Program-made: the position numbers and the translations under genes | Part shown: positions 11,875 through 16,757 of the stretch, piece after piece | Layout of the letters: each line of letters begins with the position of its first letter | How positions within the stretch are numbered: position 1 is the first letter of the stretch | The notes under the pieces: model-generated | The model's input: only the letters and a program-made list of their open reading frames with translations | Databases searched by the model: none | Told to the model about the DNA's origin: nothing | Assembly: GCA_030426475.1 (NCBI GenBank) | Contig: JAUHYR010000022.1 | Coordinates: forward strand, 1-35,114 | Reading direction: 5' to 3' | DNA length: 35,114 nucleotides | From: Bacteroidia bacterium | GTDB lineage: Bacteria > Bacteroidota > Bacteroidia > Flavobacteriales_E > Vicingaceae

Positions 11875-12240
11875 TTAAATAGCTTCGACTTTAAAGGGAA
11901 GGTCAAAAAAGGTACTAAATTCTTGCCCTTTTGCTTTAATCAAATCATCTCCTTTATCATATTTCCATACTATAAGAATGTTTTTACCATTTTGGTGAAA
12001 AGTTTCTAAGGAAGATATGAGGTTAATCAGTTGTTTGGTCGATGCAGAATTAAAGTACTCTAAGTCAATTTCAAAACGAACTACTGAGGTTGACTTTTCA
12101 ATAAATGAGTAAGTACTTTTAAAAATAGGGTTAAAAAAACTTATGGCATTTTCAGGAAAAGCTCTTCCCTTTAATGAAATTTTTGATTCACTTTCATTAA
12201 TTAAGAATTCAGGAGTTTCTTCTGTGGCTTCTATTTTCAT
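11875..12240 (-). CDS. siaC-like: SiaC-like regulatory phosphoprotein (DUF1987)
   Basis: A 121-aa protein of the SiaC/DUF1987 family, a small STAS-like partner-switching protein. Typical family blocks are visible: EFLINESESKISLKGRAFPEN near the N-terminus, FEIDLEYFNSASTKQLINL in the middle and ILIVWKYDKGDDLIKAKGQEF towards the end. In Pseudomonas aeruginosa SiaC is phosphorylated on Thr68 by the kinase SiaB and dephosphorylated by the phosphatase SiaA; the dephosphorylated form binds and activates the diguanylate cyclase SiaD. Thr68 is present here at exactly that residue number in NSASTK, with Ser65 and Ser67 next to it. Its ATG overlaps the TAA of the siaB-like gene (TAATG), so the two are made together. 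No siaD gene is nearby. Confidence 0.88.
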   Translation of the reverse strand: MKIEATEETPEFLINESESKISLKGRAFPENAISFFNPIFKSTYSFIEKSTSVVRFEIDLEYFNSASTKQLINLISSLETFHQNGKNILIVWKYDKGDDLIKAKGQEFSTFFDLPFKVEAI

Positions 12241-13319
12241 TAGTTCATCGAAAAACTTACCGCTAAGTTATAAATAAAATTATTGTCTTCGTTTTCACTA
12301 CTCTTAAAATCAAACTTGATATTGTTTTTCCCTGCATTTTTAATGATTTCTATTAAACCTACTTTGGAAGAAATTTGATTTGAGGGAAGGATAGTTTTTA
12401 ATCGTTTCTTATATAAATCACCTAAGCTTTCTTCGTCTAATGAAATCAGATAATTGAATTCATTTTCTAATTCTGGTTTTATGGAGCCGGATACTAAGTT
12501 GGAAAATTCAATAACAAGATTATTATCATGTTCCTTTATAGTGAATGTGCCTTCTTTCTTATTTTCTTTTTCTAATGAATGTCTAGAAATATTTTGGAGT
12601 GCTTCAATTGCCACTAAGTACATTTTTTTACTATTACTTTTTGAAAAGTTGGACGGTAGGTAGTTAGCCTCAACTATACTTAGAATAGGTAGAATGGTAT
12701 TTTGTTTAAAATCACCTTTGTAAAAAAACAATGTGTTTTTTGCCAGCATTTTAGAGTATATTTTTTTAAAGTTAAAAATTAATTCGTTTGATGTACTTTC
12801 TTCATCTTCATTTGATAAGTTAAGAGTAGTTAAAAAATGAAATAAATAGTCTCCGGATTCTGATTCAGTAAAGTCAAAAATGAGTTTGTTGTTAGTTTTT
12901 CTGGCTATTTCTATTAGCCCTAGTCCTGCTCCACCTTTGTCAGATATTTCTGAATTTTCAAGTTCTTTTAAATACATTTTCTTTAATTCATCTTTATCCA
13001 GTTCATTAATGGTTGAAATAGCATTTTCAATTTTTTGTACTTTTTCTTTCTTGATTAAGTTAATTGAAAAAATATAAAAAACATTTCCAGCCTTTTTTAG
13101 GAGAAAAAAATCATTATTTTCTATTTTCTCCAAGTTATCTGAATGCCTAATTACATTTTGGAAACATTCAGCTATAAGAAATGATATTTTCCTATTGCTT
13201 TTCCCTGATTGTAAATTACTTGCCTGATTACTAGAAAGGTCAATTAAAAGGTTGGTTATTTTGTCATCAAATTGCCCTAAATAGGCTAAATTAAAATCAT
13301 CTTGATTGTTAAGATTCAT
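12240..13319 (-). CDS. siaB-like: Tandem SiaB-like protein kinase (two DUF6272/HATPase-like domains, second degenerate)
   Basis: A 359-aa protein, about twice the length of single-domain SiaB (~180 aa). Domain 1 (~1-170) has an ATP-binding N-box, AECFQNVIRHS (Glu51, Asn55, His59), and a glycine box, DKGGAGLGLIEIARK (127-141). Domain 2 (~180-359) repeats the pattern with the N-box IEALQNISRHS (Glu239, Asn243, His247), but the matching segment ISSKVGLIEIIKN (316-328) has lost all but one glycine. Related spacing (N-box to G-box ~75 residues in both) and the shared GLIEI and F/KFDF ends show the halves are homologous. Domain 1 is probably the active Ser/Thr kinase for SiaC and domain 2 a regulatory or dimer-like partner (inference). 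The ATG at 13319 is preferred to the TTG just before it. It starts 32 bp from the divergent phosphatase gene. Confidence 0.82.
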   Translation of the reverse strand: MNLNNQDDFNLAYLGQFDDKITNLLIDLSSNQASNLQSGKSNRKISFLIAECFQNVIRHSDNLEKIENNDFFLLKKAGNVFYIFSINLIKKEKVQKIENAISTINELDKDELKKMYLKELENSEISDKGGAGLGLIEIARKTNNKLIFDFTESESGDYLFHFLTTLNLSNEDEESTSNELIFNFKKIYSKMLAKNTLFFYKGDFKQNTILPILSIVEANYLPSNFSKSNSKKMYLVAIEALQNISRHSLEKENKKEGTFTIKEHDNNLVIEFSNLVSGSIKPELENEFNYLISLDEESLGDLYKKRLKTILPSNQISSKVGLIEIIKNAGKNNIKFDFKSSENEDNNFIYNLAVSFSMN

Positions 13320-13330
13320 CAATAATTATA

Positions 13331-13338
13331 TATCTTTA
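13331..13338 (+). promoter_or_regulatory. Candidate -7 element for the SpoIIE phosphatase gene
   Basis: TATCTTTA matches five of six fixed positions of TAnnTTTG (final A for G). A TTG at 13306-13308, inside the start of the siaB-like gene, is 22 bp upstream, within the usual -33 spacing. An opposing TACCTTTA lies on the minus strand at 13344-13351. AT-richness makes both uncertain. Confidence 0.25.
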
Positions 13339-13351
13339 GTGTTTAAAGGTA

Positions 13352-15577
13352 ATGAAAATATATATTTTTAAAATAACATTCTTTTCTATTTTCCTTCATT
13401 TAATTTGTTTTCAATCCTTTTCTCAAAGCAAGGAAATAGTTAGTGCTATTAATTCTGGTGAGCATGATTCTATTATAACAAGGTTGTATATTGTATATGG
13501 TGACACATTGACTAAGAATAAACAATTAGAGCAGGGTTATAGAAGTTATTTAGAGGCATATAAGTATTCTGAAGACATTCATAAACCTTTAAATACGCTG
13601 CAACAGGTTATGGATAGAATAGCGTTTAACTTTCATATCCACTCAACCAGAGATTCTTTTGTAATATTATATGACGAGTTTGTTCTAAAGCATCCTGATG
13701 TGGAGTTAAACTTTCCCAAGGCAGTTTATTTTCTAGCAAAACTTGAGTTAGGACATACTTCATATAAAGATAGTGCATTAACATTTTCTGAAGACTTATT
13801 TGCGAGAGGCGATACCACCGGAGGGTTGAATCTATTAAATCATATTGCAAGCTATGAAAGGAAAAACGGTGATTTTGAGAAAGCATTGTCTATACTAAAT
13901 AAAATTATCGATTATTATGCTAAGAGCGGTAATGAAGTTCAGCTAGGTAGAATGTATCTAAATATTGGAAACCTCTTTTTGGAGATGGGTGAATTAAACT
14001 CTTGTTTCGAAAGTTATAATAAAGCATATACTATTCTTAAGGAGCAAAATGATCCATATGCAATGGCTTATATTAATAACAGTTTTGGTAATTATCATAT
14101 TGAGTCAAAAAACTTTAAAAAAGCGAGACACCATTACTCAAAGGCTGTAGAGTATTGTTTAAAAACAGACAATCAACAATTTTTAGGCTTATTATATAAT
14201 AATATAGGTGTGGTTGATGAAAGAGAATATAAATATCAATCAGCGCTAGAGAACTATTTTAATTCGCTTAAAATTAAAAGGATATATTCATCTATTACTG
14301 ATATTATTTCAGCATATAAAAATATCGGTAATCTGTATAGAAAATCAAAGGATTATAAAAAAGCACTGATTTATACTGACTCTGCATTAACTATTGCAAA
14401 GTCAATTAATTCTTTTAGGTATATAAGTAGTTGTTATAGAGATTTGGCAGAACAATACTACGAGCAAAGAAAGTATAATGAGGCTTATGATAATTTAAAA
14501 TATTACCTGCAATATTCAGATTCTCTTAAAAATGAGGAAACTCAAAAAAATATTGAAAAACTCCAAGCTGAATTTAGTTCTAAAGAAAGAGAAAGGGAAA
14601 TCAAGCTTTTGAAACAGGAAAATGAACTTTCGGATTTGAGGCTTGCAAAAAAAGAAAATGAAATTCAGCAACAAAATTATTTAGTATACTCTATAATTGG
14701 ATTTGTTGTGCTTGTGCTGATTATTTTATTTGTATTGTACTACAATTATCGACTTAAAATAAAAAGTAATAATGAGTTAGAAGAGAAAAATTATATTATT
14801 AAGAAGCAGCATAATAAAATAGTAGAGAGTATTAATTATGCTAAATATATTCAAAATGCATTTTTGGTTAATGAACAGAAATTAGAAGAGAAGTTTAGTA
14901 ATCTATTTTTATATTTTAAACCTAAAGATATTGTTTCAGGAGATTTTTATTATGTTGATGAGCATGGTGATTATACTTATTATATAGTTGCAGATTGTAC
15001 AGGACATGGTGTTCCAGGAGGATTTATGAGTACCATAGGAACAATGCTCTTAAAGAATATATTTTCTACCAATAATTTTCCAAAACCATCAGAGATTCTT
15101 ATTGAATTACATGAAGGTATAGTTAGTGTGCTAAACCAATATAGTATGTCGGCATTGTCATTAGACGGGATGGATATATCTATTGTGAGACATAAAAAGA
15201 ATAGTAATGAATTATGTTTTTCTGGTGCTATGTTGCCCATGTTTTTGGTTTTTAATGATTCATTTGAAATGTACGAAGGTAATTTAAGGGGTGTTGGAGG
15301 ATATATGATAAAACCTTCAAAAAATGAAGAGTATAGAGATACAATCGTAGAGTTAAAAAGTGGAACTTCCGTTTATTTATGTTCAGATGGATACCTTGAT
15401 CAGTTTGGTGGTCCTGATGGGAAAAAATTTAATTTAATTCGATTTAAAGAGTTGTTAATAGAAGTTTCATCTTTACCTATTGAACAAAGGAAGTCGATAG
15501 TTGCTAACCGAATGAAAGACTGGATGGGTGATAGGAATCAACTAGATGATTTATGTCTTTTAGGGATTCAGTTTTAG
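13352..15577 (+). CDS. TPR sensor - transmembrane - SpoIIE/PP2C phosphatase (SiaA-like)
   Basis: A 741-aa signalling protein. Signal peptide (1-25); periplasmic TPR array (~130-390, clear units such as GRMYLNIGNLFLEMGEL and AYKNIGNLYRKSKDYKKAL); coiled coil (395-440); one membrane helix (~443-466); cytoplasmic coiled coil (470-495); SpoIIE/PP2C domain (~515-741). Metal-binding acidic residues are in SGDFYY (Asp531), ADCTGHGVPGGF (Asp548), LCSDGYLDQ (Asp679) and LDDLCLLG (Asp732/733), so the phosphatase should be active. By analogy with SiaA it would dephosphorylate the SiaC-like protein in response to a signal sensed by the TPR region. It is divergent from siaB-siaC with only 32 bp between start codons. 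Its 3' end overlaps the convergent gene at 15560 by 18 bp. Confidence 0.87.
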   Translation: MKIYIFKITFFSIFLHLICFQSFSQSKEIVSAINSGEHDSIITRLYIVYGDTLTKNKQLEQGYRSYLEAYKYSEDIHKPLNTLQQVMDRIAFNFHIHSTRDSFVILYDEFVLKHPDVELNFPKAVYFLAKLELGHTSYKDSALTFSEDLFARGDTTGGLNLLNHIASYERKNGDFEKALSILNKIIDYYAKSGNEVQLGRMYLNIGNLFLEMGELNSCFESYNKAYTILKEQNDPYAMAYINNSFGNYHIESKNFKKARHHYSKAVEYCLKTDNQQFLGLLYNNIGVVDEREYKYQSALENYFNSLKIKRIYSSITDIISAYKNIGNLYRKSKDYKKALIYTDSALTIAKSINSFRYISSCYRDLAEQYYEQRKYNEAYDNLKYYLQYSDSLKNEETQKNIEKLQAEFSSKEREREIKLLKQENELSDLRLAKKENEIQQQNYLVYSIIGFVVLVLIILFVLYYNYRLKIKSNNELEEKNYIIKKQHNKIVESINYAKYIQNAFLVNEQKLEEKFSNLFLYFKPKDIVSGDFYYVDEHGDYTYYIVADCTGHGVPGGFMSTIGTMLLKNIFSTNNFPKPSEILIELHEGIVSVLNQYSMSALSLDGMDISIVRHKKNSNELCFSGAMLPMFLVFNDSFEMYEGNLRGVGGYMIKPSKNEEYRDTIVELKSGTSVYLCSDGYLDQFGGPDGKKFNLIRFKELLIEVSSLPIEQRKSIVANRMKDWMGDRNQLDDLCLLGIQF

Positions 15578-15889
15578 TCTGGTAACTCCATCCATAAACA
15601 GTAAAACCAGTAGTGGTATAAAGTAAATAAGGTTGGCTGAAAAGTTTTTTAATGCTAAATAAAACCAGCCAAAATCAATTTTAGTTTCAGAAGAATTAAG
15701 AAAAACAAACACTGTAATTCCGACAAATAAAATGGCTAGCGTAAACCAAATGCCATTTGGGATAATAGGCTTATAATCCTTTTTTACTTCTAGTTGATTA
15801 CTAATATGTTGAATGGTTTTACTAGTGAAATCGGCAGGAGCCTTTTTCATTACTATTGATTTCATTAAATCATCAAATTCCTGTTCCAT
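15560..15889 (-). CDS. Small two-helix membrane protein downstream of ECF sigma factor (possible anti-sigma partner)
   Basis: A 109-aa protein: a polar N-terminal region of ~45 residues (EQEFDDLMKSIVMKKAPADFTSKT) followed by two membrane helices (about 47-66 and 82-99). It is encoded 2 bp after the sigma-factor stop; the ATG at 15889 is preferred to a TTG six bases earlier. The position and layout (soluble N-terminal segment, then membrane helices) match those of membrane anti-sigma or sigma-accessory proteins, but no zinc-binding HxxxCxxC motif is present, and I cannot assign a family. The C-terminal 18 bp overlap the end of the convergent SpoIIE gene. Confidence 0.6.
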   Translation of the reverse strand: MEQEFDDLMKSIVMKKAPADFTSKTIQHISNQLEVKKDYKPIIPNGIWFTLAILFVGITVFVFLNSSETKIDFGWFYLALKNFSANLIYFIPLLVLLFMDGVTRLKLNP

Positions 15890-15891
15890 AA

Positions 15892-16416
15892 TCAACTGTT
15901 TATTTGCATGGTTAAAAATACTTCTTTTAATTTTTCTCTGCTTCGCATTAGCTTTACTTTTACATTTGACTCAGTTAAATCGGTTATTTCAGCTACCTCT
16001 TTAATGGATTTTTCATCTAAATAATATAGCGAAACAATTATTCTATCTTCTTCACTTAAAGTTTTAAGAGCCGATTTTACAGCAAGCTCTTTTTCTACTT
16101 TGTCACTATCTTCTTCAATAAATGAGTGATTAGTATTAAGTTCGATAGTATTGTTTTTTCTACTTTTTTTATAGTTGAGAGCAGAGTAGTAGGCTATTTT
16201 ATACAACCAGGTAGAAAACTTAGATTCATTTTTAAAACTACTCAGTTTGTTAAAAGCTTTTAAGAAGCTGTCTTGCGCACATTCTTCAGCGTCTTGTTCG
16301 TTACCCAATATCTGAAAAGATATGGAGTAAACCATATCTTTATACAGGTCAACAATAGTGACAAAATTGTTGGATTTTCCTGCTAGTACTTCTTGTATAG
16401 CTTGTTCTTCACTCAA
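15892..16416 (-). CDS. ECF RNA polymerase sigma factor (sigma-70 family)
   Basis: A 174-aa extracytoplasmic-function sigma factor. Region 2 (~18-88) shows LYKDMVYSISFQILGNEQDAEECAQDSFL and the -10-recognition segment KFSTWLYKIAYYSALNYKKS. Region 4 (~112-166) shows LSEEDRIIVSLYYLDEKSIKEVAEI and the helix-turn-helix TESNVKVKLMRSREKL. There is no ATG before residue 28, which lies inside region 2.1, so the start is the TTG at 16416. That TTG overlaps the TGA stop of the upstream gene (TTGA), a coupling arrangement. The sigma is flanked by a DUF6249 protein and a small membrane protein, a conserved three-gene order in Bacteroidota. Target promoters are not evident. Confidence 0.9.
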   Translation of the reverse strand: MSEEQAIQEVLAGKSNNFVTIVDLYKDMVYSISFQILGNEQDAEECAQDSFLKAFNKLSSFKNESKFSTWLYKIAYYSALNYKKSRKNNTIELNTNHSFIEEDSDKVEKELAVKSALKTLSEEDRIIVSLYYLDEKSIKEVAEITDLTESNVKVKLMRSREKLKEVFLTMQINS

Positions 16417-16757
16417 GCTTTAGTAGAGTTGTTTTTTTTGTCAAGCATATAAAAAATAACCAAACCAATGCCACCAAATAAAAAGGCCATTGAAATTAAT
16501 GCCAAAACATTATTCATACCTAAATATTTGTGTAATAAAAACCCCACAAATAAGCCGAAGGCTGCACCAATAAATAGTAGACCGTTTTTCAGTGATTTAC
16601 TTCCGCTGGCATCAGCTTCTTTTCCTTCATTTGGATTCATTCCTTTTTCAATCATGGCCATTTTTTCTCTGTTACTAGCTATTCTGTTAACGTAAATAAT
16701 ACCAAATGCCATTGCAAATGCTCCAAGTGGTACTAAAATTCCTATCATTTCTTCCAT
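16413..16757 (-). CDS. DUF6249-type small membrane protein
   Basis: A 114-aa integral membrane protein with three predicted helices: residues ~4-22 (ILVPLGAFAMAFGIIYV), ~57-77 (NGLLFIGAAFGLFVGFLL) and ~84-106. A basic/acidic loop with REKMAMIEKGMNPNEGK lies between helix 1 and 2; this REKxAMIEKG segment is the hallmark I associate with DUF6249. It is first in an operon with the ECF sigma factor and probably acts in the same envelope-stress circuit, although its biochemical role is unknown. Its stop codon overlaps the sigma start. A GTACTTTG-like box on the minus strand in the 144-bp leader could be its promoter. Confidence 0.72.
   Translation of the reverse strand: MEEMIGILVPLGAFAMAFGIIYVNRIASNREKMAMIEKGMNPNEGKEADASGSKSLKNGLLFIGAAFGLFVGFLLHKYLGMNNVLALISMAFLFGGIGLVIFYMLDKKNNSTKA

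Follow-up and report, generated by a model that had tools for sequence, protein, structure and literature searches.

A SiaABC-like partner switch without SiaD in a Bacteroidia bacterium, with an exporter as candidate output

We analyzed a 35,114-nucleotide contig (JAUHYR010000022.1, assembly GCA_030426475.1) of a Bacteroidia bacterium from the family Vicingaceae, here called the window. Positions 11,875 to 15,577 encode a SiaC-family switch protein, a SiaB-type kinase and a SpoIIE/PP2C phosphatase, relatives of the SiaABCD system of Pseudomonas aeruginosa. The best overall explanation of our results, for which belief and doubt are about equal, is a partner switch of the Sia type whose output is not cyclic di-GMP (c-di-GMP), with an ABCG-type exporter as the best candidate. 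The parts of this explanation differ in firmness. As far as conserved residues can tell, the triad very probably uses the chemistry of the Sia switch, and the gene content of the genome makes it almost certain that the triad does not act via a GGDEF protein such as SiaD. SiaD is a very unlikely target because the genome has neither a GGDEF gene nor a detectable SiaC-binding stalk.

The Sia-type triad

The siaC gene (11875..12240, minus strand) encodes a switch phosphoprotein of 121 residues, which matches PF09345 with an E-value of 3.3e-30 (104.7 bits, cut-off 24.5). SiaC of P. aeruginosa (6kko) aligns with it in phmmer without gaps (E 4.3e-13). Upstream on the same strand lies the kinase gene (12240..13322), whose stop codon overlaps the siaC start. 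The kinase (360 residues) matches PF19788 in two stretches (E 2.8e-48), has a further match to 6kko_A, and scores 175.4 bits with the NCBIfam model SiaB_fam_kinase (NF038262, cut-off 85). The initial annotation had recognized the kinase family correctly but had overlooked the tandem duplication.

Domain 1 of the kinase (12840..13211, minus strand) retains Glu52, Asn56 and the GGAGLG box. Glu52 is the catalytic residue and aligns with Glu61, the catalytic residue of P. aeruginosa SiaB (PMC7647112). Domain 2 (12282..12647, minus strand) retains the Glu and the Asn, and the glycine box of its ATP lid is eroded (SSKVGLIEI); it is possibly a pseudokinase or a regulatory half. Single-sequence structure prediction of the tandem protein gave a predicted local distance difference test (pLDDT) score of 32, too low for the model to be informative.

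The phosphatase gene (13352..15577, plus strand) diverges from the kinase gene, with start codons about 30 bases apart. Its 741-residue product consists of a hydrophobic N-terminal signal, a periplasmic array of tetratricopeptide repeats (TPR), one transmembrane helix (residues ~443-467, 14678..14752, plus strand, from a hydropathy scan), a coiled coil and a SpoIIE/PP2C catalytic domain (14969..15574, plus strand; PF07228). The best match in the PDB is the PP2C domain of SiaA (6k4e, E about 2.4e-34 to 6e-34), and the alignment with 6k4e shows that the active-site motifs GDFY, DCTGHG, SDG and DD are retained. PADLOC returned only generic TPR and ATPase matches. Profile and PDB matches for all three proteins, together with the TPR repeats, the single transmembrane helix and the SpoIIE domain, bear out the initial annotation, which had described the three genes as lying together and the phosphatase as carrying a periplasmic TPR array. 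All three proteins stay below the NCBIfam equivalog cut-offs: SiaC scores 78.8 bits (cut-off 150), the kinase 65.6 bits with the SiaB model (cut-off 225) and the phosphatase 167.5 bits with the SiaA model (cut-off 700).

In P. aeruginosa, SiaC is phosphorylated at Thr68, a residue that reaches in between the helices of the SiaD stalk (PMC7647112; PMC8457831). This threonine had been reported as conserved in the window, which turned out to be a coincidence of numbering. Residue 68 of the window SiaC is a threonine by number only and aligns with Ile71 of P. aeruginosa SiaC. In both the phmmer alignment and a MAFFT alignment of 20 SiaC proteins, the Thr68 column is occupied by Ser65 (codon 12046..12048, minus strand; YFN-S-AST in the window, YLN-T-SSI in P. 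aeruginosa). An earlier SiaC alignment (A2) was set aside because its divergence was too high for a scan of the collection. Ser65 could in principle still be phosphorylated. A serine also occupies this column in three SiaC proteins (L054, L061 and L062) that are paired with stand-alone stalk proteins; hence Ser65 is compatible with the same chemistry as in P. aeruginosa. The YFN residues around the SiaC contact site are conserved within the class of the window genome. A literature search found no papers on DUF1987 or DUF6272 in Bacteroidetes.

Triads of the window type are also found at L063, in a different family, and at L115, in a different genus of the window's family. In both, the phosphatase gene is convergent and not divergent as in the window. 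The SiaC proteins of the window and of L063 are sisters (support 0.89). SiaC of L115 falls outside this group, and therefore its triad may have been assembled separately. Recurrence in another family and genus with a different gene order suggests that the grouping exceeds chance.

It also bears on whether the module has a target at all. Conceivably, the triad merely buffers phosphate between many PP2C phosphatases and SiaB kinases. The genome (2.87 Mb) has four SiaB loci and three SiaC loci, and the latter face 35 SpoIIE/PP2C domains, a ratio that looks as though numerous sensors converged on a small set of switch proteins. In the order, some SiaC paralogues even have Ile, Leu or Val in the phospho-acceptor column. 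However, a triad that recurs as a unit across families while its gene order changes speaks for a dedicated function, and we consider pure buffering improbable.

No SiaD and no docking stalk

The initial annotation had found no GGDEF gene in the window and had named a SiaD elsewhere in the genome as one finding that would speak against its proposal. We widened the search to the entire genome (97.7% complete) and obtained zero matches to PF00990 in the window and zero in the genome.

The absence of GGDEF extends beyond this genome. Among 247 sampled Bacteroidota genomes 14 encode SiaC. All 46 genomes of the window's order encode SiaC, usually in several copies, compared to 13/246 in the rest of the phylum sample. 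GGDEF proteins occur in only 3/46 genomes of the order and in 1/32 of those of good quality; two of the three positive genomes (G276 and G283) are fragmented assemblies of lower completeness and are treated with caution. Within the window's class, none of the five genomes with SiaC (the window genome and four others) has a GGDEF match. The nine SiaC genomes of other classes each have at least one, which in five of them is a single weak match.

The second missing element is the docking site. The published SiaC-binding motif of the SiaD stalk is ISDRYQ (pattern SDxxQ), with contacts at S82, D83 and Q86 (PMC8457831). In the other classes, the product of a gene beside siaC begins with a helical stalk, in which the D and the Q are present in every copy. 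When a profile of this stalk is compared with the SiaD stalk, the two line up at the ISDRYQ motif, with weak significance (E 0.033). Such a siaC-adjacent stalk protein is present in 8/9 SiaC genomes of other classes (profile E < 1e-26). Its fusion partners are GGDEF (L049, L052), a HisKA kinase (L050, L051), PP2C (L056) and a transmembrane segment (L060); it stands alone in L054, L061 and L062, the latter two with AAA+ neighbours. G133 and G125 each have a second, unlinked stalk copy, which is joined to a class III cyclase. Fusions of the stalk to a class III nucleotide cyclase are seen at L075 (3964-4944) and L076 (3888-4835), a possible cyclic AMP or cyclic GMP branch outside the window's class. 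G109 (locus L055) is the only SiaC genome of another class in which no stalk was detected, and it lacks the exporter described below as well.

In the window genome, stalk profile A1 found no match at E<=10 and profile A4 none at E<=0.1; the matches in other classes (E < 1e-26) served as positive controls. The 46 genomes of the order yielded no credible match either (best E 0.027), and neither did the five SiaC genomes of the class or the genes that flank siaC in this class. Weak matches in two genomes (G146 and G186) are OmpA-type coiled-coil lipoproteins and were rejected. The proposal of a SiaABC-like switch that lacks a SiaD output is thus strengthened: GGDEF is absent from the entire genome and limited to 3/46 genomes of the order, and the stalk is undetectable in all 46.

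The triad may be a real switch whose private target is some other protein encoded elsewhere in the genome, for example, a histidine kinase, a PP2C protein or a transcription regulator; the helical docking site of this protein would have diverged beyond the reach of our stalk profile. The variety of stalk fusions in other classes indicates that outputs are freely swapped, the conserved YFN contact residues fit a docking partner of this kind, and the SiaC of the window, as a paralogue in its own right, could have a different partner. Yet no credible stalk turned up in the genome, the order or the siaC-flanking genes of the class. We regard such a hidden docking site as rather unlikely.

An ABCG-type exporter as candidate output

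Among 128 siaC genes, 102 have siaB directly upstream. The commonest neighbour family after siaB is an exporter of about 1,030 residues with ABC and ABC2 domains. It lies at most four genes from the core siaC in 29/87 core loci, beside siaB-siaC. The flanking context of these pairs varies on both sides. The pairs are convergent in most cases and co-directional in family f9, where siaA, siaB, siaC and the exporter gene follow each other on one strand. The window genome has an intact exporter gene as well (contig C35, locus L244, 748-3804), which adjoins no siaC.

A profile of the exporter head matches exactly 5/247 genomes, and these are the five SiaC genomes of class Bacteroidia. G076, a genome of family f9, has no exporter and does not count among the SiaC-positive genomes either. 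A naive Fisher test of exporter against SiaC gives 1.4e-10, which overstates the case because the exporter was first noticed in 4/5 positive genomes and three of the five come from one family.

The head is the cytoplasmic part that distinguishes this exporter. An AlphaFold2 model of residues 1-256 (pLDDT 83) divides into a helical half and a beta half. The helical half (residues 1-142) matches 2h5n, a member of the TerB family, with a Z-score of 10.3. In line with this, PF05099 (TerB) is found in 18/19 head members (best E 6e-8; L155 reaches 28.1 bits with a cut-off of 24.4). The beta half (residues 145-240) matches tens of FHA chains, which fill nearly all rows of the result, at Z-scores of 5.5-6.9, below the guide value of 8, and mostly at a root-mean-square deviation of 2-4. 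Pfam finds no FHA match in the 19 head members. FHA domains commonly bind phospho-Thr. We do not claim such binding for the exporter head because the canonical pocket is not evident.

In the mechanism that we propose, the periplasmic TPR array of the phosphatase would sense a signal and thereby control, through the membrane, the PP2C domain in the cytoplasm. As expected from homology, Ser65 of SiaC would be phosphorylated by the tandem SiaB kinase and dephosphorylated by the phosphatase. Unphosphorylated SiaC would then bind its target. In the SiaC network of this lineage, the candidate target is the exporter, whose activity SiaC may gate via the TerB-like and FHA-like head.

Several observations weigh against the exporter. 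It was found as a neighbour of siaC in 4/5 positive genomes, so that the independent evidence consists of its presence in the window genome and its absence from 242 others. Exporter and siaC are mostly convergent and do not form one operon. It is the core SiaC that has the exporter as a neighbour, whereas the window SiaC is a Ser-type paralogue; in addition, the genomes of f9 have one SiaC as against three exporters. The canonical phospho-Thr pocket (GR, SxxH, N) is not evident in the FHA-like half, where only an NG motif is clear in columns read by eye. Finally, stalk and head profiles are dissimilar, and therefore a contact between SiaC and the exporter would be of another kind than that between SiaC and the stalk. 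A likeness of the stalk motif to the head (VKxxKI) that we had seen by eye was discarded (hhalign probability 0.4, no profile similarity).

Mostly convergent, separate transcription units, unlinked in the window genome, would also be expected if exporter and SiaC were inherited together for a common physiology, such as surface or envelope export, without any contact. Against this stands the observation that the exporter stays beside siaB-siaC even though the flanks change, and that f9 places all four genes on a single strand. Co-inheritance without contact thus appears unlikely to us.

On balance, gene neighbourhood and distribution make the exporter a plausible candidate output of the core SiaC, just short of an even call. 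For the window's own SiaC the same candidate is doubtful; being a paralogue, this SiaC could have another target. It is also conceivable, though less likely than not, that SiaABC has been rewired in an order nearly without c-di-GMP synthesis, from controlling a second-messenger enzyme to direct phospho-control of an exporter through a TerB/FHA-like head. The literature that we searched does not describe a partner-switching output via such an exporter.

Our results suggest that SiaC may serve as a general connector, to which different lineages attach different outputs. In classes other than that of the window, one docking stalk serves GGDEF, class III cyclase, histidine kinase and phosphatase outputs. 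Every genome of the window's order has the switch, none has a detectable stalk, and c-di-GMP synthesis is nearly absent. Should the exporter prove to be the target, partner switching would be gating a transporter.

Neighbouring operon and other Sia genes

An operon with an extracytoplasmic function (ECF) sigma factor (15560-16757, minus strand) encodes a DUF6249 protein, the sigma factor (15892-16416) and a 111-residue protein. It converges on the module, as the initial annotation had stated, and its 3' end overlaps the end of the phosphatase gene by 18 bases. SiaC shares its fold with anti-sigma antagonists (PMC7647112) and might act on this operon in their manner, the more so as another ECF sigma gene lies near the siaC on contig C128. 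We found no link between triad and operon, however: across 11 loci the ECF genes are scattered relative to siaC, and the triads of L063 and L115 do without one in the same place. This makes control of the sigma operon by SiaC highly improbable.

In a tree of SiaC proteins, the C128 copy is the core type, and the copy on contig C107 and the window SiaC are paralogues. A core siaC is also present in Crocinitomix algicola (L176). The core siaB-siaC pair (L030, 1133-5395) lies by a MerR/B12-domain regulator, the ECF sigma gene and carotenoid-synthesis-like genes. A second tandem SiaB kinase, without SiaC, is encoded on contig C45 (L032, 6227-8630), where genes for RNase Z and for an anti-sigma-antagonist-type STAS protein lie in line with it; the glycine box of its domain 2 is also eroded. 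The paralogues with Ile, Leu or Val in the phospho-acceptor column (L107, L109, L114, L117, L120, L124, L125, L127, L130, L135, L141 and L144) come, where neighbours were read, after the gene of a LytTR response regulator; a LytS-type histidine kinase gene usually precedes that of the regulator, and a DUF4924 gene is close by. A contig titled Candidatus Saccharibacteria (L168) carries a core SiaC of Bacteroidota type, 74% identical to the C128 SiaC, and is possibly mis-binned.

Comparison with known systems

In the SpoIIAA/SpoIIAB/SpoIIE and RsbVWU systems, the phosphorylation state of a small switch protein depends on a kinase and a PP2C phosphatase, and its unphosphorylated form binds the target. 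The switch protein of the window differs in belonging to the SiaC family, and no sigma-factor system is established as its target.

Closest is SiaABCD of P. aeruginosa (PMC7647112, PMC8457831). Like it, the window module has adjacent genes for a PP2C phosphatase, SiaB and SiaC, and it retains the catalytic residues and, as a serine, the phospho-acceptor position. In contrast to it, the module has neither SiaD nor a stalk; its kinase is duplicated, its sensor is a periplasmic TPR array, Ser replaces Thr68, and SiaA, SiaB and SiaC all fall below the equivalog cut-offs.

For the candidate output, the nearest parallel is Rv1747 of Mycobacterium tuberculosis, an FHA-FHA-ABC-ABC2 exporter under the control of the Ser/Thr kinase PknF (PMC3908365, PMC5549992). 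The exporter described here has a TerB-like and only one FHA-like domain, is associated with a SiaB-type kinase and shows no evident phospho-Thr pocket, and we do not claim that it belongs with Rv1747. What the two share is an FHA-like head on an ABC-ABC2 exporter and a tie, putative in our case, to Ser/Thr phosphorylation.

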